From a virus, in IMG/VR virus record IMGVR_UViG_3300032286_000096, positions 1-28,649 of that record: a stretch of DNA of 28,649 nt; one strand, written 5' to 3'. Positions 5,375 to 28,649 of this stretch are shown one piece after another (position 1 is the stretch's first letter; every line of letters starts with the position of its first letter). The notes below the pieces were generated by a model. It searched no databases. It saw only the letters and a program-made list of their open reading frames with translations, and had not been told where the DNA came from. Position numbers and translations under genes: made by a program.

Positions 5375-5968
5375 ATGGCAGAACTAATAAGTGTAAATAA
5401 TAATACAGGATTTCCACCTGTTTTTTTAAATGCCTATATTCTTGAAGAATTAAGAAAGTTTAAAGGAGTTGACGGCAATCCACTCATGCCAACTGGACCA
5501 GAGCCATTTCAACCTTTCTTCCCAGCACAAGTTCCTGATAGCGTAGAGGGTATTTATAATGACATTCCATTTATTAGAAACAACCCAGATACAACAGTTA
5601 TTATATTTGATAGGCTTATTAGATTTAGACCAAACACATTTTATAGACATAAAAGAGAACAGTTAATATATTTTATTTATAGTCCAAACCTTTCTAAACT
5701 GATTGACACTACTAGGGTTATTATTGAATGCCTAGACAGAGAGGACGCTGCTGCTCAAGACCTAAATCTATGGATATCTCAAAATGACATTCTTGATGAA
5801 AATCAAGAAGTTATTACCAAAAATGTATTTTTTCATAATATAAAGGTTTATCAGGCAGATGAAAGTAGGGATATCCTAGAATTAGCATCTGCCAGAACCC
5901 TTGGACTTAACAAACTTGTAATAGAGTATGACTATCATACAGGCGGGGTATCCGAAAGATATACCTAA
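5375..5968 (+). CDS. Putative tail terminator protein
   Basis: 197 residues. The middle shows a mixed alpha/beta pattern ('YRHKREQLIYFIYSPNLSKL', then 'IDTTRVIIECLDREDAAAQD') and a strand before the end ('TLGLNKLVIEYDYHT'). This suits the tail terminator fold (lambda gpU/HK97 gp10-neighbour class), which caps the tail tube and meets the neck. It lies directly before the major tail protein, the classical place for the terminator. It has four intergenic bases after the neck gene and a weak ribosome site. The last codons come just before the promoter at 5974, so it ends this transcription segment. No terminator hairpin is seen after it. Confidence 0.55.
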   Translation: MAELISVNNNTGFPPVFLNAYILEELRKFKGVDGNPLMPTGPEPFQPFFPAQVPDSVEGIYNDIPFIRNNPDTTVIIFDRLIRFRPNTFYRHKREQLIYFIYSPNLSKLIDTTRVIIECLDREDAAAQDLNLWISQNDILDENQEVITKNVFFHNIKVYQADESRDILELASARTLGLNKLVIEYDYHTGGVSERYT

Positions 5969-6044: not shown

Positions 6045-6683
6045 ATGGCATACAGTCGTGGAACATCGACCAACATTATTGTTGGCGCTGCTGCACTTTT
6101 CGTTGCAGATACAACCTTAACTCCAGGAACACTGGAGGCATTTAGTACAGAAGTATCTTTTAAAGAAACACTTTCAAATGATGCAGCATATACTAACGTA
6201 GGTTATACAATGAACGGTCTTGAATTACAGTTCCAACCAGACTTCGGTGAAGTACAGGTTGACCAAATTCTTGACGTTGCAAAACTTTACAAGCAAGGCA
6301 TGCAGGTAAATCTTGCAACTGCTTTTGCTGAGGCTACTCTTGAGAATCTTCTTTTGGCTCTAGCATTTAACTCAGACGAATTAACTGGAAACAAAGCAAG
6401 TCACACAGGACAGGTTTTAAACCTATCTGCAGGAGACATTGGTGAGTGCCCAGTAGAACGTGGAATTGTTGCAGTAGGACCTGGTACAGGTGACTGCATA
6501 GATTCTCCATTCGTAGAGCGTGTTTACACAGCATACCGTGCTTTGTCAATCGAAAACGTAACAGTTTCAGCAAAGCGTGATGAGGCTTCAATGTTTGAAG
6601 TTTCTTTCCGTTTGCTACCAGAAGACGTTTCAGGCTCATACGGTAAGATCGTTGATCGTACCTTCGGAGACCTATTGTCTTAA
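6045..6683 (+). CDS. Major tail protein (tail tube subunit)
   Basis: 212 residues. It forms the stacked hexameric rings of the tail tube. Sequence signs include 'YTNVGYTMNGLELQFQPDFG' followed by 'EVQVDQILDVAKLYKQG' and 'TLENLLLALAF', the central strand-helix arrangement of phage tail tube proteins, and C-terminal strands with 'RALSIENVTVSAKRDEASMF'. It has its own promoter (5974), a good ribosome site and its own terminator (6703). Codon use is shifted toward CGT/CGC for Arg, as in the capsid gene. Both fit a very abundant structural protein. Position after the tail terminator and before the tail chaperones is canonical. Confidence 0.85.
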   Translation: MAYSRGTSTNIIVGAAALFVADTTLTPGTLEAFSTEVSFKETLSNDAAYTNVGYTMNGLELQFQPDFGEVQVDQILDVAKLYKQGMQVNLATAFAEATLENLLLALAFNSDELTGNKASHTGQVLNLSAGDIGECPVERGIVAVGPGTGDCIDSPFVERVYTAYRALSIENVTVSAKRDEASMFEVSFRLLPEDVSGSYGKIVDRTFGDLLS

Positions 6684-6702: not shown

Positions 6703-6736
6703 AGCCCATGTCTTCGGATGTGGGCTTTGTTGTTTT
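6703..6736 (+). terminator. Rho-independent terminator after major tail protein
   Basis: AGCCCATGTC (6703-6712) pairs with GATGTGGGCT (6717-6726) in a 10-pair stem with two G-U pairs and a stable TTCG tetraloop. It is followed by TTGTTGTTTT. It lies 19 bases after the major tail protein stop. Confidence 0.9.
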
Positions 6737-6737
6737 A

Positions 6738-6746
6738 TGATAGAAT
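6738..6746 (+). promoter_or_regulatory. Extended -10 promoter, leaderless, for long tail chaperone
   Basis: TGATAGAAT is one base off TGNTATAAT and starts one base after the T-run of the major tail terminator. ATG 6756 is 10 bases after the end of this -10, with no Shine-Dalgarno between. The mRNA would therefore start within about three bases of the ATG and be effectively leaderless. Confidence 0.55.
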
Positions 6747-6755
6747 AGATTTTAT

Positions 6756-7451
6756 ATGGCAACTACAATATATAAAAGCAAAGTCGTGTATTTATTTAAT
6801 GGTACAGAATTAGAAATAATACCATTAAAAATAAAATATCTTCGTGAATTTATGATAACATTTGATAACATTAATAACACTAAAAATGATGATGAAGCAA
6901 TTGAGGTGTTAGTAGAGTGTGTCAGAATATGTATGAAACAATATTATCCTAAAATTGCGGGTACTGTTAAGGATGTTGAAGATAATATAGATATGCCAAC
7001 AATTTATGATATTTTAGATATTGCTGCTGGAATACGTATTAATAAAAAATCACAAGAGCCAGTAAAGGATCAAGCAATAGACAGCGGGAATACCTGGGAA
7101 AATCTTGATTTAGCCAAATTAGAATCTGAGGTATTTTTATTAGGTATATGGAAAGACTATCAAGAATTAGAAACTTCTTTGTCAATGCCAGAACTAATGG
7201 CAACCTTAGAGGTAAGTAGAGAATTAGATTATACAGAAAAGAAATTTTTGGCTGCAATTCAAGGTGTAAATTTAGACGGGGAAGCAAATAAAAATAAAGG
7301 TCAAAAAGAATGGGAAGACATGAAAGCCAGAGTATTTAGCAAAGGTAAGACAAATGATAGCAATGATGTACTAGCGTTGCAAGGTGTAAATGCACAGAAA
7401 GCAGGGTTTGGTATTGGAATGGGTTTGGATTACGAAGACCTAACAAAATAG
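6756..7451 (+). CDS. Tail assembly chaperone, long form (G-T-like)
   Basis: 231 residues. Residues 1-95 are a G-type chaperone domain, clearly paralogous to the next gene: shared 'PLKI..LR.FM', 'ECV.I.MKQY.P' and 'PT.Y.I...A.GI', about 36 identities over 95 aligned positions by eye. Residues ~115-231 are a second domain with 'EVFLLGIWKDYQELETSLSM' and a closing 'GFGIGMGLDYEDLTK', fitting the T part of G-T chaperones. Such proteins bind the tape measure and recruit tail tube subunits; they are absent from the finished tail. Usually the T part is reached by a -1 ribosomal frameshift. Here the G and T parts are one uninterrupted frame and no frameshift is needed. It is preceded by a weak, apparently leaderless promoter. 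Confidence 0.75.
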   Translation: MATTIYKSKVVYLFNGTELEIIPLKIKYLREFMITFDNINNTKNDDEAIEVLVECVRICMKQYYPKIAGTVKDVEDNIDMPTIYDILDIAAGIRINKKSQEPVKDQAIDSGNTWENLDLAKLESEVFLLGIWKDYQELETSLSMPELMATLEVSRELDYTEKKFLAAIQGVNLDGEANKNKGQKEWEDMKARVFSKGKTNDSNDVLALQGVNAQKAGFGIGMGLDYEDLTK

Positions 7452-7459
7452 TTTCCTTA

Positions 7460-7468
7460 TGCTATAAT
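7460..7468 (+). promoter_or_regulatory. Extended -10 promoter for short tail chaperone
   Basis: TGCTATAAT matches TG-N-TATAAT in the 41-base gap between the two chaperone genes. The expected start is near 7475. A strong ribosome site, TAGGAGGAAA (7481-7490), precedes ATG 7493. No -35 is clear. The tape measure gene downstream has no promoter of its own that I can see and is probably read from here. Confidence 0.65.
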
Positions 7469-7492
7469 TGACATAACCTATAGGAGGAAATA

Positions 7493-7822
7493 ATGGCAAC
7501 AACTACGCATGAGGAAAATACTCTTACGTTAATTGATGGCACAAAAGTTACAGTACGTCCTCTAAAAATCTCTCTACTTCGTCCATTTATGAAGAAGTTT
7601 GAGGGTGTGGGAGCGGTGGCGGAAGATAATGGAAAATCTATGGACATTCTTATGGAATGTGTACAGATTGCAATGAAACAATACAAGCCAGAACTCTCTG
7701 AAGACGTAAATAAACTAGAGGAGATCGTTGATCTTCCAACTGTTTACAAGATCGTAGAAGCAGCATCAGGTATTAAACTTGCTGAAGTTTCAGACGTTCT
7801 TGGCGTAACTATGGCTGAATAA
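7493..7822 (+). CDS. Tail assembly chaperone, short form (G-like)
   Basis: 109 residues, essentially only the G domain of the preceding gene: MATT start, 'RPLKISLLRPFM', 'ILMECVQIAMKQYKPEL' and 'VDLPTVYKIVEAASGIKL', ending about 12 residues after the shared part. It lacks the T domain. No slippery heptamer is apparent near its end, and the tape measure gene starts 22 bases after its stop. It probably supplies the abundant short chaperone that coats the tape measure, while the upstream gene supplies the rarer long form. Strong promoter, strong Shine-Dalgarno and GC-richer codons (CGT, AAG, ATC) suggest higher expression than the long form. Family is clear; the division of labour is inference. 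Confidence 0.75.
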   Translation: MATTTHEENTLTLIDGTKVTVRPLKISLLRPFMKKFEGVGAVAEDNGKSMDILMECVQIAMKQYKPELSEDVNKLEEIVDLPTVYKIVEAASGIKLAEVSDVLGVTMAE

Positions 7823-7844: not shown

Positions 7845-10800
7845 ATGGCTGATGTTAATGCTAATATTGACATTAATATTGATTCGTCTAATGCATTAGC
7901 ACAGTTAAAGGCATTACAACGTCAGATATCACAGTTTCACACCTCTATTTCTAAATCAAGCGAGGCTGCAGCACTTGCACAAAGAGATTTACAAAAAAAT
8001 CTTTTAAATAGCATAAATTCTATCGGCGCATTTAGTGCTGAAATGCGTACAGTTAAAACATCTGCAGAATCTTTTACTGACTCGTTAGAAAAAAATAAGT
8101 TTTCAATGCGTGAGTACTTCCGCTATGCGGGAGCATCTACAAAGACATTTGGTAAGTTATTTAAATCTGAGTTTGACACAGTTGGCAAGGTAGCAGAAGA
8201 ACGTGTAAAAAGACTACAGACTCAATATATTAAGATGGGCCGTGATACTAACGGTGCAATGAGAGCAATTGCTGTTATGCCAACACAATTGAACATGGAA
8301 GACTATACAACCAAAGTTCAATTAGCAGCACAGAAACAAGCATTATTTAATCAATTAATGAAACAGGGTTCTACTAATCTTCTAAATTTTGGTAAGAATA
8401 CTCAATGGGCAGGTCGTCAGTTAATGGTTGGTTTTACACTTCCATTAATGGCTGTAGGAACTGCAGCAACCAAAACATTTATGGAAATGGAAGCACAGGC
8501 TTTAAAATTTAAAAAGGTTTATGGAGATTTATTTACACCACAAGAAGAAACTCAACAAGCATTAGATAACATAACAGAGTTAGGCAAACAATTTACAAAA
8601 TATGGTGTAGCAGTATCTACTACTGTTGGTTTGGCTGCAGAGGCTGCAGCAGCAGGTTTTTCTGGTCTTGATTTACAAAGACAAACAACAGAAGCAACAC
8701 GCCTATCTATTCTTGGTCAAATTGATAGTCAGCAAGCACTTGAAACAACTATTTCTTTACAAAATGCTTTTGGAATGTCTTCTGAAAAACTTGCAGATTC
8801 TATTAACTTTTTAAACGCAGTAGAAAACCAAACAGTTGTATCACTTGATGATATCACTATTGCAATTCCAAAAGTTGCTCCAGTTATTCAACAACTAGGC
8901 GGAGATGTAAAAGATTTAACATTCTTTATGGCAGCAATGAAGGAAGGTGGAATTAATGCATCAGAAGGTGCTAACGCACTTAAGTCTGGTTTAGCAGCGT
9001 TAATTAATCCAACTAAAAAAGCAAGCGATATGCTTGCTGGTTTTGGAATTAATGCAAATGAGATTGTAACAAAAAATAAAGGAAATCTTAAAGCAACAGT
9101 AGTAGAATTTGCAACAGCACTTAACCAACTAGATCCACTTAATAGAGCAAGAGCAATTGAACAAATGTTTGGTAAATTCCAATTTGCTCGTTTATCAACA
9201 TTATTTGCTAACGTTGCAAAAGATGGAAATCAGGCTGCTCGTGTTCTTGCTTTAGCAAATTCATCAGTAGAAGAACTTTCTGCATTATCAGAGCAAGAAT
9301 TAGGAATGACTGCAGACTCTGCAATGAATAAATTTAAGAAAACTGTTGAAGATTTAAAGGTTGCACTTATTCCAGTTGGTCAAGCATTTTTAGAGGCAGT
9401 TACTCCAATAATTGATTTTGTTGGAAATATACTTGAAAAATTTGATAATCTTTCTAATGGAACTAAAAAACTGATTACACTATTAACTGTTGGTATTGGT
9501 GCTGTTGGACCAGTTCTTCTGATGACTTTTGGTTTATTTGCTAACGGTATTGCAAATATTATTAAATTATTCTTAACACTCCGTGGAGGATATCAAAGAC
9601 TAACTGGACAAACACAAATACTTGGTGAACAAACCCAATACATGACAAGTGAACAGATTGATGCAGCATCAGCAGCACATTCTCTTAATCAAACACATGC
9701 AAATTTAACACAAACATTTAATGCTGAAGCAACTGCAATCAATAAACTTATAGCAGCATATACTTCTGCAGCAGGTGCAGCAAGAAACTTTGCAATAAAT
9801 AATCCTGGAATGATGCTACCAGGAAGAGGTGCAAGAAAACTAGCAAGTGGTATTGTTTCTGTTCCTGGACCAAAAGGAGCAGGAGATGTAGTTCCAGCAA
9901 TGTTATCTCCAGGAGAAGCAGTTATTCCAACAGAAATGGCAAAGAAGTATGCTCCATTAATTCAGGGAATGATTGCAGATAAAATTCCTGGATATAAAAA
10001 GGGTAATCTTGGAGAAACAGTAGGAACAGTTCTTGGTGGAAGTTTTATGCAAAGAAGATTTTCTCCTATTGCAATGATGGCTCCAGGAAATACTGCTAGT
10101 GGTTTTGGTATGGATCCAGAATGGCTACAACTTAATGAAACAGCAAAAGCATCTTTTGCATCTGCATTAAAAACTGCAGCAATGGCAGAGGCTGGAATAA
10201 GACAGACATCAGATAATTATAATAAATTTTGGGTAGGACTAAACCCAGTATTAGATGGAATATTTGATATTTTTAAGAGTGGTATTAGTGATGAAGTAAC
10301 TAGCGTAGCACAACTTGGTGAACAACAATATCCAAAAATTGTACAACATATTCAAAGTTTAGAACAAAGTTCACAAATTAGTGCAGATCAAGCAGAACAA
10401 TTATCTGTAGCATTAAGAAAACTTGTTTCTCCATTATTAAGTGATAAAACACAAACAGATATAAAAAGAATTGAGTTAGCATTAAATGAATCAGGACAAA
10501 CAGTTGTTAAAAGAGCATCGTATGAAAGATTTGGCGATTCATTAAAAGAACAAACAGTAAAGAATTTTCCAAGAGAACTTGCACAAAGAAATTTACCAGT
10601 TCCAGGAAACATGCAAGATTATACTTTTGCTCATATTCCACAAGCAAGTGCTACGCCAACATATATTGATCCATTTTTAAGAAAAAAGGCTGGTGCTGGA
10701 AATGCTGCCGAACAAAAAGTTTTAGCAGAACTTAAAAAAGGTGCTTCATTTAAAGAAGGGCAAGTAGTTGCAAATGCTGCTATTCAAGGTGCAAAAGAAG

Positions 10801-13800
10801 GTGCAGCATCAGCATCTCCTTCGAAAAAAACAATTCCAATAGGACAAGATATTGCTCGTGGTTTAGAAGTTGGAATGGCAAGTAGACAAGGTGATGTGGC
10901 AAAAGCAGGAACTACTTTGGCTAACGCTGCAGTTGGTGGAGTCAGAAATGTTCCATTTAGAGCACCAGGTCAGCCAGGATCTATAGCATCTAGTTCTCCA
11001 GCAGCAGTTAATTTAGCAGAAATAACAGAAAAGGCAAGGCGGAATAGAGACCAAATTCTTGCAAACAGACAAGCAAAACGCATAGAAGTAATGAATGCAA
11101 GAATGAATAACTTGAATAAAGCCTTCATGTCTGGAACGTTTGCACTATCTGCCCTCTCTGGTGTAGCATCAATGGCTGGCGGAAATTTAGGAAAATTCTC
11201 TGAAATATTGTTTCAAATAAGTGGACCATTGTTTGCACTATCATCTATAATTCAACTCCTTACTGGTCAAAAAATAATAGCACTCCTTTCAGCATTAGGA
11301 GCACTTAAATTAGGAGTTATTGCTGTTGGCATTACTGCTTTAGGTGTTGGACTTAAACTAACAAATGATGCAAAAAAACGAGAATTAGAATATATCAATG
11401 GTCTATCAAATGCAATGAAAACTACTACGAAACAAGTAAAAACATTAGGAGATTTTTTTGGTGTTGTTCCAACAAAACTTCCATTTGAAGGAAAAAATAG
11501 GGAAATTGTAGGAAAAACAGTAAGGTCTCAAAGAGATGCCTTAAGAGCAGATGAATCATTCCAAGAACAATTTGCACCTACCATCAAAACATTGTCTAAA
11601 GCAACAGCACAAGAAGCAGAACTAGCATTTACCTCTTTAGCACTTAATCTTAAAGCACAAGGTTTTGCAACTGAACAAGTTCAAACAATTATTGATGCCC
11701 TTCGTGAAGAAGCAGGAAAAACTGATGTAAAAATAGATGTAAAATCATTAAATTTTTCTGAAGAAGCAATTAAAAAATTACAAAGTCAAATTGCAGCAAT
11801 TCTTGTAAATTTTGATAAAAACTTTAAAGTTGAGCCAACTGGACTTGAAAAGTTTTTAAAGGGACTCTGGGGTAGTTTAATGGGAGATGCTCCAGAAGTT
11901 GTAACAATGACAAATGAAACTAAAAAATCTCTTTCTGAATTGAGTACTTTTATATCAGAAACTGCAAAATCTTCTGCTGGAATGTTTAAACTTGGTCTTA
12001 TTGATGGAGACCAATTCGAAGCAAGTTTAACTGGAATATTGAGTACACTTAATGGACTAGATGAAGCAGCAAGAAGAGTTGCATTAATAGATATATTTAA
12101 ACAACTTGGTATTAATGCAGGACCGTTTTTAAAAAATCTTCAATCAGCAAAACAAGAAATGATGCTTATTGCTCTTTTAAGTTCTGGAGTTCTTTCTAAA
12201 GACAGTCCTACTATAAAGGCATTGTCTTCAACAGATCCAAAAGCAAGAGCCAGAGCAATAAATAGATTAACCCAAGAATATATAGGTCTTTTTGGAGCAG
12301 TAGCCAAAGTAAATGAAGAGGATGCAAAATTAAATGGCGAGGGCAATGATGGACAAGCAAAAGGAGAATTAAAAGGACTAGCAGCAAAAATTCAAGCACT
12401 TAAAGATCAAACAGAAGCATTTACACTTTTGATAAGCAAGCAAGTTGATTATAAAACTGCATTAGAGTTAACCAATGATTCTGAAATTGTAGCAGAAATT
12501 CTTGCAAATAAAAATCTTAAAACAACAAAACAAAGAACGGATGCACTTAAAAAATATCTTGCGTTAGTTGAAGAATTTAAAGTACAAAGTAAAATAAATG
12601 AAGAAACTGTTGCTGATCCACGAGATGTAGGAATTGCACGTTTAGAAAACTTACAAAAATTTATAGCCCTTAATGAAAAACTTATTGATTTACGTGCTGC
12701 AACTAAAATTAAAGAATTTAATGATGAAATAGAAAAACAAGAAGGACTTTTAGAAAAAGTAAATGACCAAATTCAAACAATTACACAAAATCAAATTGAG
12801 CCAATACAAAAGGTAATTGACGCAAATAATTACGTCCTTGAACAAATAGCATTACAAGAAGATGCAATTAATGAAAAATATAATAAGCAAATAGAAGCAC
12901 TTGACACAATTGAAAAAGCCAATCAAAATATTGCAAACATTCAAAAACAAAGAATGTCAATTGCTGATGCCCTTACTCGTGGAGACATATCTGCTGCTGC
13001 ACAGGCTGTACAAGAAGCAAGAACACAAAATGCACAATCTGTTTTAACTAACCAAAGAGATATTTTAACTAGTGCTCGTGATGAAAATATTAAAAAACTT
13101 GGTAGAATTGAAATTGAAAAAAGAAATAAAGTGCTTCAATTAGAAATAGCAACAATTGAAAAACAAAAATTGTTAACTCTCCAAGAACAAAAAAATGAAA
13201 TTGAAGATAGTATTGATGCAACTAATCGTAAACTTAAAGCGCTAAACACTACAGTTGAAAAAGAAAAAGAATCTGCAATTTATGCTGGTAAAACTAAATT
13301 AGAGATTGATACAGCAAAGACACTTCTTGAGTTAAGTAAAGGTCCGTTAGATGCTTATGCTGCAAAACTTGCAGGTTCTGCTACAAATGCTACAAACTTG
13401 GCAAATGAACTTGAAAGAGCACTTAAGGCTATGCTTGCTATGCAAAATCAACCAGTAGCGTCTGCTCCATCAATTACAAATCCTGTTAAATATGATGAAA
13501 TTCAAAGCAGGCTAACTGCACAAAATATTGCAATGGGAATTGAACCAGGAGCAGCAGCAGGACTAGCAGGAATGTCTTCAAGACTACAGGCTCAAGCAGA
13601 TGCTTATTTTAGGGCTAATCCACAACTAGATCCATTAACAGGAAAATTAAAAATGGCAATGGGTGGTATGGTTCCAAAATATTTTGTTTCAGGTGGATAT
13701 TCAAGGGGTACCGACACAATTCCAGCAATGCTAACACCTGGAGAGTTTGTGGTTAAAAGAAATGCTGTTGATTCATTTGGAGTAAATAATCTTAATAAAA

Positions 13801-13955
13801 TAAATGATGGCTCATACAGTGGATCTTCAGTGTATAATTATAACTTAAATCTAAATGTTAAATCTGAATCTAATGCAGATGATATTGCAAGAACAGTTAT
13901 GACACAGATTAAAAGAATTGATAATCAAAGAATTAGAACTCAGAGAGGATTATAA
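7845..13955 (+). CDS. Tape measure protein
   Basis: 2036 residues, the largest gene here, placed directly after the chaperones. It sets tail length and is ejected ahead of the DNA. Residues ~200-530 match the TP901-type tape measure core, with Ala-rich helices such as 'TTVGLAAEAAAAGFSGLDLQ' and 'MAAMKEGGINASEGANALKS'. Two long hydrophobic parts lie at about 543-580 and 1098-1180, possible membrane-insertion segments. An 'SPSK...GQDIARGLEVGM' motif near 990 is common in tape measures. The 'VPAMLSPGEAVIP' motif near 680-695 returns as 'IPAMLTPGEFVV' near 1960. Residues ~1600-1800 are a charged coiled coil. At about 0.15 nm per residue, the tail would be roughly 300 nm. No peptidase or lysozyme motif was recognised. 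GTG-GAA... upstream 'AGAGGTGTGAAA' (7830-7841) is the ribosome site. Its stop overlaps the next ATG. Confidence 0.92.
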   Translation: MADVNANIDINIDSSNALAQLKALQRQISQFHTSISKSSEAAALAQRDLQKNLLNSINSIGAFSAEMRTVKTSAESFTDSLEKNKFSMREYFRYAGASTKTFGKLFKSEFDTVGKVAEERVKRLQTQYIKMGRDTNGAMRAIAVMPTQLNMEDYTTKVQLAAQKQALFNQLMKQGSTNLLNFGKNTQWAGRQLMVGFTLPLMAVGTAATKTFMEMEAQALKFKKVYGDLFTPQEETQQALDNITELGKQFTKYGVAVSTTVGLAAEAAAAGFSGLDLQRQTTEATRLSILGQIDSQQALETTISLQNAFGMSSEKLADSINFLNAVENQTVVSLDDITIAIPKVAPVIQQLGGDVKDLTFFMAAMKEGGINASEGANALKSGLAALINPTKKASDMLAGFGINANEIVTKNKGNLKATVVEFATALNQLDPLNRARAIEQMFGKFQFARLSTLFANVAKDGNQAARVLALANSSVEELSALSEQELGMTADSAMNKFKKTVEDLKVALIPVGQAFLEAVTPIIDFVGNILEKFDNLSNGTKKLITLLTVGIGAVGPVLLMTFGLFANGIANIIKLFLTLRGGYQRLTGQTQILGEQTQYMTSEQIDAASAAHSLNQTHANLTQTFNAEATAINKLIAAYTSAAGAARNFAINNPGMMLPGRGARKLASGIVSVPGPKGAGDVVPAMLSPGEAVIPTEMAKKYAPLIQGMIADKIPGYKKGNLGETVGTVLGGSFMQRRFSPIAMMAPGNTASGFGMDPEWLQLNETAKASFASALKTAAMAEAGIRQTSDNYNKFWVGLNPVLDGIFDIFKSGISDEVTSVAQLGEQQYPKIVQHIQSLEQSSQISADQAEQLSVALRKLVSPLLSDKTQTDIKRIELALNESGQTVVKRASYERFGDSLKEQTVKNFPRELAQRNLPVPGNMQDYTFAHIPQASATPTYIDPFLRKKAGAGNAAEQKVLAELKKGASFKEGQVVANAAIQGAKEGAASASPSKKTIPIGQDIARGLEVGMASRQGDVAKAGTTLANAAVGGVRNVPFRAPGQPGSIASSSPAAVNLAEITEKARRNRDQILANRQAKRIEVMNARMNNLNKAFMSGTFALSALSGVASMAGGNLGKFSEILFQISGPLFALSSIIQLLTGQKIIALLSALGALKLGVIAVGITALGVGLKLTNDAKKRELEYINGLSNAMKTTTKQVKTLGDFFGVVPTKLPFEGKNREIVGKTVRSQRDALRADESFQEQFAPTIKTLSKATAQEAELAFTSLALNLKAQGFATEQVQTIIDALREEAGKTDVKIDVKSLNFSEEAIKKLQSQIAAILVNFDKNFKVEPTGLEKFLKGLWGSLMGDAPEVVTMTNETKKSLSELSTFISETAKSSAGMFKLGLIDGDQFEASLTGILSTLNGLDEAARRVALIDIFKQLGINAGPFLKNLQSAKQEMMLIALLSSGVLSKDSPTIKALSSTDPKARARAINRLTQEYIGLFGAVAKVNEEDAKLNGEGNDGQAKGELKGLAAKIQALKDQTEAFTLLISKQVDYKTALELTNDSEIVAEILANKNLKTTKQRTDALKKYLALVEEFKVQSKINEETVADPRDVGIARLENLQKFIALNEKLIDLRAATKIKEFNDEIEKQEGLLEKVNDQIQTITQNQIEPIQKVIDANNYVLEQIALQEDAINEKYNKQIEALDTIEKANQNIANIQKQRMSIADALTRGDISAAAQAVQEARTQNAQSVLTNQRDILTSARDENIKKLGRIEIEKRNKVLQLEIATIEKQKLLTLQEQKNEIEDSIDATNRKLKALNTTVEKEKESAIYAGKTKLEIDTAKTLLELSKGPLDAYAAKLAGSATNATNLANELERALKAMLAMQNQPVASAPSITNPVKYDEIQSRLTAQNIAMGIEPGAAAGLAGMSSRLQAQADAYFRANPQLDPLTGKLKMAMGGMVPKYFVSGGYSRGTDTIPAMLTPGEFVVKRNAVDSFGVNNLNKINDGSYSGSSVYNYNLNLNVKSESNADDIARTVMTQIKRIDNQRIRTQRGL

Positions 13956-25501: not shown

Positions 25502-28500
25502 ATGAACTATGTAGGCTTACATGTTCATACTCACTACTCCCTATTTGACGGCATAGCAACTCCACAAGAGTATGTAGACCGTGCTAGCAAGTTGGGTATG
25601 AACGCTCTTGCAATTACAGATCACGGTACGCTTTCTGGTCACAGAGAGTTGTATCGTGCTGCAAAAGAAAAGGGTATTAAGCCAATCCTTGGTTTAGAAG
25701 GATACATGTGTGCAGACATATCTGATAAAAGAGATAAGTCTGAAAGAGAAGGTCAACAAGACCTTGTTTATAATCATATTATCCTTCTAGCCAAGAACCA
25801 AAAAGGTTTGGAAAATCTTAATAAGATTAGTGAAATTGCATGGACAGATGGATTTTTTAAAAAACCAAGATTTGATTTTGAAATTCTTAAAAAGTATAAA
25901 GAGGGAATTATTGTAACTTCTGCTTGTCCTAGTAGCGTTATTGTTAAAGCATTAGAAGAGCAAGAGTTTGCAATTGCTAAAAAGAACATTAATTGGTTTA
26001 AAGATAACTTTGGTAGTGATTATTATATTGAGGTTATGCCACACAATACACCAGAAATAAACAAATACCTTATTGAACTTGCTGATGAATTTAATATAAA
26101 AGTTGTTGTTACACCAGATTGTCATCATTCAGATACGTTGCAAAAAGAAATACAAGAGTTTAAGTTGATCCTAAATACGCATGGAAAAGTAAACAAAGAA
26201 GCAACGTATGAAAAATCTAAAAAGAAAACAAACATGATGGAACGACTTGATTATTTATATGGTCATGATCGTGATATAACATTTAATAAATTTGATATTC
26301 ATCTTCTTTCATATGAAGAAATTAAAGCAGCAATGGAAAAACAGGGTATTAATAGGGAAGATATATACTCTAATACCCTATTGTTAGCAGATACAGTAGA
26401 GGATTATGACATTAAAGATGGATTAAATTTACTTCCTGTTCAATATAAAAACCCAGATCAGCAACTAAGAGATCTAGCATGGCAAGCATTAAGTGATAAA
26501 AAATTAACATCTTCTTGGGTAGGAAATGATTCGTATGAATTAAGATTAGACGAAGAACTTGAAATCATTAAAGATAAAAAGTTTGCCCCATACTTTCTTG
26601 TAGTTCAAAGCATGATTAATTGGGCTAAGAAAGAAGGGATATTGGTTGGTCCTGGACGTGGATCCTCTGCTGGTTCTTTAGTTTGTTATATGCTTGGAAT
26701 TACAGATATAGATCCATTAGAGCATGGACTTTTATTCTTTCGTTTTATTAATCCAGAACGTAATGATTTTCCTGATATTGATACAGATATTCAGGATACT
26801 CGTCGTGATGAAGTAAAAGATTATTTAGTTAGACAGTACAGGCACGTAGCATCTATTGCAACATTCCTTGAATTTAAAGATAAGGGTGTAGTACGAGATG
26901 TTGCACGAGTTTTAGACATTCCACTTACAGATGTTAACAAAGTTTTAAAATTAGTTGATACTTGGGATGAATACTGTACATCTAAAACTACATTGTGGTT
27001 TAGAGAAAAATATCCAGAGGTGGAGATTTATGGAGATCAATTACGTGGTCGTATTAGGGGTACTGGCATTCATGCTGCAGGAGTTGTTACTAGCAAAGAT
27101 CCAATCTTTAGGTTTGCGCCGTTGGAAACTCGTTCTTCTCCTGGATCTGACGATAGGATTCCAGTCGTTGGCGTCGACATGGAAGAGGCTGAAAAAATTG
27201 GTCTTATTAAAATTGACGCATTAGGTTTAAAAACTTTAAGTGTAGTAAAAGATGCTATTGGGATGATTAAACAAAATCATTATAAAGACATAGATCTTTT
27301 ATCAATTGATATGGCAGACCCTAAAGTATATGAGATGCTTTCAGACGGGTATACAAAAGGTGTATTTCAGTGTGAAGCAACACCATATACAAACCTTCTA
27401 GTAAAAATGGGAGTAAAAAACTTTAATGAATTAGCAGCATCAAATGCTCTTGTTCGTCCAGGCGCAATGAATACTATTGGAAAAGATTATATTGCTCGTA
27501 AACATGGCAAACAGGCTGTATCATATCTACATCAGATATTAAAGCCATATACGGAGGACACCTATGGTTGCGTTCTTTACCAAGAGCAAGTTATGCAGGC
27601 ATGCGTACACCTTGGCGGTATGTCCATGTCAGAGGCAGATAAAGTTAGAAAAATCATTGGCAAGAAAAAGGATGCTAAAGAATTTGATGTATACAAAGAG
27701 CAGTTTGTTGCTGGTGCTTCTGCCTATATTAGTCCCAATCAGGCTCGTGATCTATGGCATGACTTTGAAGCGCATGCGGGATACTCGTTCAACAAGTCTC
27801 ATGCGGTTGCTTACTCTACGCTCTCATATTGGACGGCGTGGTTAAAATATTATTATCCGCTTGAGTTTATGTTTGCCCTTCTTAAAAATGAGAAGGATAA
27901 GGATGGTAGAACAGAATATCTCATTGAAGCAAAACGTATGGGGATATCTATTAAACTTCCACATATCAATGATTCTGATCTTGATTTTAAAATTGAAGGT
28001 AAGGGCATAAGGTTTGGACTAACAGGAATTAAGTTTATTTCTACTAATATTGCTGAAAAGTATATCGCTGCTCGTCCATTTAAAACATACAAAGAACTTG
28101 AAGAATTTACTTTTACAAAAGGTAATGGTGTAAACAGTAGAGCGCTTAATGCTCTTAAACTTATTGGTGCAGCAACATTTGCTGATAATGAAAGAAATGA
28201 TAGTGAAATTAAAGAAAATATTTATGAATATTTAAATCTACCAGAGTTTAATATAGCAATTCCTTCACACTATTATGCATTTATTCAAGACGTTGATTCA
28301 TTTGAAGAAAAGGGATCATACATTTTAATGGGTATGGTTAAAGCAATTAAACGAGGAAAAGGTTGGTCACGAGTTGAAATTCTGGACAAAACTGGCAGTA
28401 TTGGTATATTTGATGAAGAAGCAACAGTTATTGAGACGGGTCGTACTTACCTGGTCCTTGCTAATGATAATCGGATTGTCTCTGCAATTTCTGTTGACGA

Positions 28501-28649
28501 AATAAAAGAATCTTCAAATGCACTTGTTAAATTTTTAGGTTACAAACAATTACCATATAGTGAAGAGGAAATGTTTGTAGTTTCTTTTAAACCAAGAATT
28601 ACAAAAACTGGAAAAAAGATGGCTTCTTTAACTTTAGCAGATACAGCAA
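25502..28649 (+). CDS. dnaE: DNA polymerase III alpha subunit, DnaE-like (partial, 3' end missing)
   Basis: Open from ATG 25502 to the right edge: 1049 residues and no stop. It begins three bases after the SSB stop. The PHP domain keeps every metal-site residue I can map: H7, H9, D16, H41, E66, H92, C142, D206 and H208. The palm has 'PGRGSSAGSL' (from residue 383) and the catalytic Asp pair in 'PDIDTDI' (D427, D429), with the third Asp in 'IKIDALGL' (D572). Fingers and thumb follow ('QVMQACVHLGG', 'AHAGYSFNKSHAVAYS'). A helix-hairpin-helix region lies near 890-930, then an OB-like domain ('ILMGMVKAIKRGKGWSRVEI'), then the start of a second OB ('ITKTGKKMASLTLADTA'), cut by the window. It is the replicase of this phage. 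Confidence 0.95.
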   Translation, partial: MNYVGLHVHTHYSLFDGIATPQEYVDRASKLGMNALAITDHGTLSGHRELYRAAKEKGIKPILGLEGYMCADISDKRDKSEREGQQDLVYNHIILLAKNQKGLENLNKISEIAWTDGFFKKPRFDFEILKKYKEGIIVTSACPSSVIVKALEEQEFAIAKKNINWFKDNFGSDYYIEVMPHNTPEINKYLIELADEFNIKVVVTPDCHHSDTLQKEIQEFKLILNTHGKVNKEATYEKSKKKTNMMERLDYLYGHDRDITFNKFDIHLLSYEEIKAAMEKQGINREDIYSNTLLLADTVEDYDIKDGLNLLPVQYKNPDQQLRDLAWQALSDKKLTSSWVGNDSYELRLDEELEIIKDKKFAPYFLVVQSMINWAKKEGILVGPGRGSSAGSLVCYMLGITDIDPLEHGLLFFRFINPERNDFPDIDTDIQDTRRDEVKDYLVRQYRHVASIATFLEFKDKGVVRDVARVLDIPLTDVNKVLKLVDTWDEYCTSKTTLWFREKYPEVEIYGDQLRGRIRGTGIHAAGVVTSKDPIFRFAPLETRSSPGSDDRIPVVGVDMEEAEKIGLIKIDALGLKTLSVVKDAIGMIKQNHYKDIDLLSIDMADPKVYEMLSDGYTKGVFQCEATPYTNLLVKMGVKNFNELAASNALVRPGAMNTIGKDYIARKHGKQAVSYLHQILKPYTEDTYGCVLYQEQVMQACVHLGGMSMSEADKVRKIIGKKKDAKEFDVYKEQFVAGASAYISPNQARDLWHDFEAHAGYSFNKSHAVAYSTLSYWTAWLKYYYPLEFMFALLKNEKDKDGRTEYLIEAKRMGISIKLPHINDSDLDFKIEGKGIRFGLTGIKFISTNIAEKYIAARPFKTYKELEEFTFTKGNGVNSRALNALKLIGAATFADNERNDSEIKENIYEYLNLPEFNIAIPSHYYAFIQDVDSFEEKGSYILMGMVKAIKRGKGWSRVEILDKTGSIGIFDEEATVIETGRTYLVLANDNRIVSAISVDEIKESSNALVKFLGYKQLPYSEEEMFVVSFKPRITKTGKKMASLTLADTA

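Follow-up and report, generated by a model that had tools for sequence, protein, structure and literature searches.

How does a phage obtain both tail assembly chaperones, the short G and the longer GT, when tandem genes stand in the place of a frameshifting pair? As reported, the G/GT frameshift is widely conserved in long-tailed phages (PMC5009743), and where chaperone genes stand in tandem, a missed frameshift is the usual presumption (PRFect, PMC10885494). For the window, that is, the whole 28.6 kb stretch of DNA analyzed here, a metagenomic virus record, a preliminary description had proposed that duplicated genes are used instead of a frameshift. This proposal is supported, and none of the three findings that it had named as counter-evidence was made: a slippery site giving another product from the short gene, a C-terminal part of the long protein unlike T, or mis-assembly. 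The best explanation is that G and GT come from two tandem genes derived from one frameshift ancestor by a second G, which we consider probable.

The two genes of the window and the identity of their products

The two open reading frames are as first described, both on the plus strand and both with an MATT start: a long gene of 231 aa at 6756-7451 and a short gene of 109 aa at 7493-7822. They sit between the genes for the major tail protein and the tape measure, an order that is the same in annotated relatives. The upstream product (6045-6683, plus strand) matches phrog_2175, 'protein with Ig domain' (E 7e-32), and weakly phrog_885, major tail protein (E 0.039), and its position equals that of the annotated major tail protein in Streptomyces relatives. 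The tape measure gene (7845-13955, plus strand; 2036 aa) starts after a gap of 22 nt and matches phrog_10030 (E 1.8e-108) and Pfam PhageMin_Tail (E 3.7e-25). Rfam and tRNA scans of the window gave no matches. At the far end of the window, an open-ended frame of 1049 aa (25502-28648) follows genes for a DnaB-like helicase, a primase, and a single-strand binding protein; its start, recognized by eye, presumably belongs to a DNA polymerase III alpha subunit.

The similarity of the two G domains, earlier put at 36 of 95 identical residues, is borne out by BLASTP, with 38/100 identical and 69/100 positive over the first 100 residues (E 6e-26). Both window proteins match PHROG 10504 (E 1.6e-22 and 2.5e-20), which in the long protein covers residues 1-100 (6756-7055, plus strand). 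The C-terminal part of the long protein matches a separate family, PHROG 10474 (E 4e-14), to which the short protein has no match. This T domain (7071-7448, plus strand) is aligned to the family over residues 131-223 and to the Streptomyces T by tblastn from about residue 109.

Based on tblastn, the long protein matches 130 phage records, 127 from Streptomyces and 3 from Rhodococcus phages, and the short protein matches 127 records, all from Streptomyces phages and at one place per record. The matches include genes 54 and 55 of MulchMansion, annotated as 'tail assembly chaperone' (E 2e-33). In MulchMansion, Coruscant, and BillNye, the match splits into two small annotated genes, with G in one frame and T in the -1 frame; MulchMansion and Coruscant label them tail assembly chaperone, BillNye hypothetical. 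For the Streptomyces phages Sham and Yaboi and the Rhodococcus phage Dorin, a joined gene is annotated. Thus, the C-terminal part of the long form, which had been taken for T, is homologous to the -1 frame T of annotated Streptomyces chaperones, and these split and joined genes identify the long gene as G joined to T in a single frame, and the short gene as a second G. Judged only from the Streptomyces and Rhodococcus relatives, the hosts would be actinobacteria; a scan of bacterial genome contigs found no relative.

General family collections contributed less. Pfam has no family for either window protein at E 1, and over 66 aligned short or G proteins, it gave scattered weak matches only (best E 0.0038). 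Among 68 long proteins, the NCBIfam model 'phage tail assembly chaperone G' (tail_chap_PVL) matched 3 members (best E 0.062), and an unrelated model, for an rRNA methyltransferase, matched most often (4 members, best E 0.0012). Because the unrelated model matched more often, we judged these matches to be at chance level and rejected them as evidence of identity. A profile of short and G proteins gave two matches to PDB sequences, at E 0.48 and 0.93.

Predicted structures agree with the identification of G. The model of the long protein, built from 68 aligned sequences, has a mean pLDDT of 77.5 with a low-confidence tail, and that of the short protein has a mean of 74.3. Compared with predicted viral proteins (BFVD), the long model has three matches reaching E 0.001, two of which are without a name (one of 215 aa, TM 0.69). 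The third is a named tail assembly chaperone, A0A6J5QVP5, matched at probability 1.00 by both models (E 6.5e-4 for the long and 2.1e-7 for the short model, the latter with TM 0.77). In the comparison with known chaperones suggested earlier, the models thus give the G domain a fold resembling that of predicted tail assembly chaperones. For T in the long model, there are weaker matches to the chaperone of the Arthrobacter phage Kitkat (probability 0.93), to EfaCPT1, an Enterococcus 'tape measure chaperone frameshift protein' (0.90), and to N15 gpGT (0.77), with E 0.013-0.047 (0.047 for each of the last two) and low TM-scores; this fold comparison would add weak support to the identity of T. Foldseek found no match of the long model to the PDB at E ≤0.001, and a second look at the structure (VIA) gave no Z of at least 5.

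Gene layouts among relatives and the direction of change

To describe the layout among relatives, we collected 410 loci including the window, several contigs being present more than once; the profiles read 334 of them as 'G+T then G' and 67 as 'G / -1 / T'. Among the 259 loci with non-identical chaperone regions, again with the window, 207 carry two genes and 43 a single G with T in the -1 frame, proportions that follow from the queries used and do not estimate prevalence. The rest, kept outside the layout counts, are Dorin, seven loci apparently cut by contig ends (five G+T, one T G, and one G), and one with a broken second G. In this last locus, of the two-gene type (L150:4921-5255), the second G is split over two frames by an assembly error or a real frame change. 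G and T share one frame in the window and the other 206 two-gene loci, and a single G match was found in 18/18 frameshift-type records searched whole, some of which are fragments. Both Streptomyces phages and low-GC environmental contigs are found among the frameshift relatives; hereafter, 'Streptomyces-type' denotes loci L163-L181, which are partly IMG/VR contigs.

An assembly artifact could be suspected because the window is a metagenomic virus record. However, the same layout recurs in 207 of the 259 non-identical loci, on IMG/VR contigs with many different sample numbers, so the probability of an assembly accident is close to nil. Tandem G+T and G chaperone genes in place of a frameshift are confirmed as an observation, which is stronger than when first stated.

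Intact frameshift relatives, which the preliminary description had proposed to look for, are represented by the 43 loci, and 35 of these have an in-frame slippery heptamer XXXYYYZ in the G/T overlap. The heptamer is CCCAAAC in 24 loci (low-GC contigs), CCCAAAT in 8 (of higher GC), and GGGAAAC in 3 (low-GC). The remaining eight, Streptomyces-type loci L163, L164, and L167-L172, all carry an in-frame CCCGGAA at the same place, which suggests a non-canonical slippery site. Among the loci listed, the codon context AAC/AAT GAC CCA AAY is common to Streptomyces phages and low-GC contigs with CCCAAAC/T. By comparison with the G tails of frameshift relatives, where an in-frame XXXYYYZ occurs in 26/32, the tails of short genes contain one in 5/68, in all five cases TTTAAAT. 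The short gene has no conserved slippery site leading into a T frame, and in the window the tape measure gene begins 22 nt after it. The window and the other two-gene loci are thus not frameshift pairs: T lies in the frame of G, and a conserved slippery site is absent.

The direction of the change was read from the flanking genes. The flanking-gene tree, built on 1017 columns from the tail terminator, the major tail protein, and the beginning of the tape measure, has 100 rows thinned from 230 eligible ones, namely 68 two-gene and 32 frameshift loci. In it, the 68 two-gene phages are all united in one clade (SH-aLRT 99), and a single change of layout is needed; the program warns of long branches at the root. 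Similarly, a 40-row tree under a mixture model unites its 22 two-gene phages (SH-aLRT 97), again with a single change. Separately, the tail terminator and the tape measure each need one change and the major tail protein two; a free tree of T also needs two. Modest support (80 in the 100-row and 90 in the 40-row tree) places the low-GC frameshift contigs as sister to the two-gene clade. Because the Streptomyces-type root has the frameshift layout, the frameshift looks ancestral and lost once in the sampled phages.

A FastTree of T, in which the low-GC frameshift contigs fall inside the two-gene phages, had suggested that these contigs derive from two-gene phages. We rejected this derivation, as a single branch of the flanking-gene tree separates the sampled two-gene phages from the rest, the slippery site and codon context of the contigs match those of Streptomyces phages, and the likelihood of a T tree with one two-gene clade slightly exceeds that of the free tree.

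The G tree (88 rows, including 28 of the 68 two-gene phages) places the long copies in one clade (100/98) and the short copies in another (98/90), which do not adjoin. The long copies attach between the Streptomyces-type G and all other G copies, and the short copies group with frameshift contigs L299, L305, and L307. These three are low-GC contigs with GGGAAAC instead of CCCAAAC; the flanking-gene tree places them elsewhere, and it does not reject them as the sister of the two-gene clade (p-AU 0.39).

The deep attachment of the long G clade, together with its lower identity to the low-GC frameshift G (0.44, compared with 0.57 for the short G), would fit a long G-T gene acquired from a different phage of the wider family through recombination, after which the resident frameshift gene shrank to G. 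Such a history would leave the present-day mechanism unchanged and alter the origin alone. However, the two-gene T is closer to the low-GC frameshift T (0.57) than to the Streptomyces-type T (0.42), and holding T as one two-gene clade gives a tree that is at least as good (p-AU 0.561). Forcing the long and short G copies together is not rejected either (p-AU 0.365). Since a joint clade is not rejected and the long copy evolves faster, the deep placement of the long G can be long-branch attraction. We regard the recombination route as possible but rather unlikely; in the preferred reading, the second G would have arisen by tandem duplication.

Expression signals, selection, and a proposed mechanism

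To compare the signals of expression, we used the 68 two-gene and 32 frameshift loci that form the rows of the thinned flanking-gene tree. The scores for Shine-Dalgarno, -10, and terminator sites are simple definitions made for this analysis, with mononucleotide shuffles as the reference. With start codons chosen by closeness to the profile start, a Shine-Dalgarno match of at least 5 nt precedes 0/68 long genes, 66/68 short genes, and 32/32 frameshift-type G genes.

In the window, the extended -10 of the long gene, TGA TAGAAT (6738-6746, plus strand; hexamer 6741-6746), ends 9 nt before the ATG, and a Shine-Dalgarno match of at least 3 nt is absent. A -10 with at least 5/6 matches ends 5-10 nt before the start in 59/68 long genes (57/68 by the best site alone), compared with a mean of 3.5 and a maximum of 8 in shuffled sequences; this geometry is found in 1/68 short genes and 0/32 frameshift-type G genes. 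With such a spacing, transcription would be expected to start approximately at the ATG, and the mRNA of the long gene would be leaderless. When this geometry is combined with a Shine-Dalgarno match under 4, genes of the leaderless-like type are the long gene in 56/68 and, in the same phages, the major tail gene in 0/65, the tape measure gene in 0/68, and the tail terminator gene in 8/65. In the window, the gene at 5375, which precedes the major tail protein gene, is a 'tail terminator' by position; TAGAAT lies 6 nt upstream of its ATG, and its Shine-Dalgarno match is 4 nt long.

Nine of the 68 long genes are off the leaderless geometry, six of them with longer spacing and a G-rich run. In L138, L255, L335, L340, L345, L350, and L409, the main -10 is approximately 14-16 nt from the ATG with a G-rich run between, perhaps indicating a very short leader with a weak ribosome site. 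Six upstream alternative starts with a Shine-Dalgarno match exist for the long gene, in 3/68 loci (L067, L074, and L399); those of L067 and L074 were rejected because the match falls in the G-rich arm of the terminator.

The short gene of the window has an extended -10, TGC TATAAT (7460-7468, plus strand; hexamer 7463-7468), a -35-like CTAACA at 7440 with a 17-nt spacer to the -10, and a Shine-Dalgarno sequence AGGAGG (7482-7487, plus strand). An exact TATAAT preceded by TGn lies 23-42 nt upstream of the start in 68/68 short genes; TATAAT is also the best site in 27/32 frameshift-type G genes, where best sites range from 22 to 32 nt. Moreover, between the major tail protein and long genes, the window has an intrinsic terminator-like hairpin with a T-rich tail (6703-6736, plus strand), the hairpin proper being a 10-pair stem at 6703-6726, a feature absent from the preliminary description. 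Within 110 nt upstream of the gene, such a hairpin is present in 63/68 long genes (shuffled mean 0.7), and among frameshift G genes in 17/20 low-GC and 12/12 Streptomyces-type loci; upstream of short genes, no terminator-like site was found within 110 nt (0/68).

These patterns indicate that the short gene has the promoter and ribosome-site type of the frameshift G, and that the long gene has a different, leaderless type. Regarding the earlier claim that each gene has its own -10, both motifs are present, the long gene without a Shine-Dalgarno sequence and the short one with AGGAGG, but for the supposedly weak -10 of the long gene, 'leaderless-type promoter' is the more fitting description.

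Both genes appear to be under purifying selection. Over 2278 pairs, the median identity is 0.53 for the long G, 0.70 for the short G, 0.69 for T, and 0.73 for the major tail protein, the long G copy evolving faster than the short one. From pairs with dS between 0.15 and 1, the median dN/dS is 0.25 for the long G (2141 pairs), 0.16 for T (1458), and 0.135 for the short G (2283), and with such low values both genes seem to be maintained. The different rates of the two G copies, and their identity of only approximately 40% within one phage, could also mean that they are specialized proteins, for example coating different parts of a long tape measure, and that their separation does not serve a ratio. 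We consider such specialization doubtful, as relatives in the same family that have a single gene get by with one G sequence, and the split follows the ancestral division into G and GT in 207 two-gene loci.

Even less probable, and in our judgment very unlikely, is a second recoding event (slippage, cleavage, or drop-off) through which the long gene would go on producing G, with the short gene as an extra. The linker of the window long gene does contain a run of six A that codes for KK, and some XXXYYYZ is present in 8/68 linkers; these are, however, of five different kinds and not conserved, compared with three kinds in the G tails of frameshift loci, and of the three parts compared, dN/dS is lowest for the short gene.

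The mechanism that we propose has separate genes for G and GT. In the ancestor, a single gene would have yielded both forms through a -1 shift of frame at a slippery site, and a second G would have arisen once, in the stem of the two-gene clade. The upstream copy, with a leaderless-type promoter, no ribosome-binding site, and G fused in frame to T, would yield only GT. The downstream copy would have kept the ancestral type of promoter and Shine-Dalgarno sequence, lost the slippery site and T, and thus yield only G. As no terminator is seen between the genes, transcription of the long gene can also continue through the short one; the consensus promoter of the short gene would add short-only transcripts with their own ribosome-binding site, and G should exceed GT. 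Both proteins are presumably made, and promoter and ribosome-site strength would set the G:GT ratio, as far as sequence signals allow prediction.

Observations in model systems provide a rationale for this arrangement. In lambda, the two forms occur at approximately 30:1; the tape measure is bound by the G part and the tail tube subunit by T (PMC5009743). When gpG and gpT are permanently fused in TP901-1, with no free G, the particles look normal but are non-infectious (PMC4493119). Accordingly, a phage with G and T fused should depend on another source of free G, and the short gene would be that source. In Mycobacterium tuberculosis, approximately a quarter of the genes with a mapped start are leaderless; their mRNAs showed no overall difference in mRNA:protein ratio and fewer reads in growth (PMC3898074). 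Since leaderless mRNAs are not always weak, the strength may lie in the promoter rather than in translation. We give an even chance to the fuller proposal that this phage clade swapped a highly conserved recoding switch for gene duplication with split initiation, combining a scarce leaderless GT with an abundant, nested, Shine-Dalgarno-led G. If so, chaperone stoichiometry would be set by two initiation modes, and not by a slipping ribosome, and could vary with the condition of the host's ribosomes. A protein ratio would then be set by leaderless and leadered initiation working side by side.

Comparison with known systems

To our knowledge, there is no settled answer as to why the G/GT frameshift is kept. 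The phages described here offer a natural experiment, with related groups that have or lack the frameshift, one inferred change between them, and a visible candidate for the replacement of ratio control, so that one can ask whether the frameshift itself is important or the ratio alone. For annotators, they are a caution that tandem chaperone genes need not be a missed frameshift. A 2022 paper in Virology on T4-like phages, a different phage group, reportedly concerns a mechanism other than frameshifting, as its title suggests, and could narrow the claim of novelty. In the literature, duplicated G/GT genes are not reported among the matches listed, as far as the available text of those sources extends.

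A conceptual parallel is provided by the selenophosphate synthetases SPS1/SPS2, in which a recoded dual-function gene was replaced by duplicates that split its functions; unlike the phage genes, these encode an animal enzyme, involve UGA recoding, and have no role in stoichiometry (PMC4561486). Much closer are the chaperones of the Stanwilliamsviridae (MulchMansion, Coruscant, BillNye, Sham, and Yaboi), whose G and T are homologous to those of the window, with the same synteny. They share the terminator-like hairpin upstream and the Shine-Dalgarno sequence before G, whereas they have a single G, with T in the -1 frame.

The G/GT pair of the lambda type, known from lambda, TP901-1, and many other phages, likewise lies before the tape measure gene and consists of a short G and a G+T form (PMC5009743, PMC4493119), both of which are apparently needed in lambda and TP901-1. 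In lambda, the two forms come from one gene by a -1 frameshift (PMC5009743), whereas the two-gene phages have no conserved slippery site and use two genes with separate promoter motifs. We rate the chaperones themselves as familiar and the way in which they appear to be made, from two genes, as unfamiliar.
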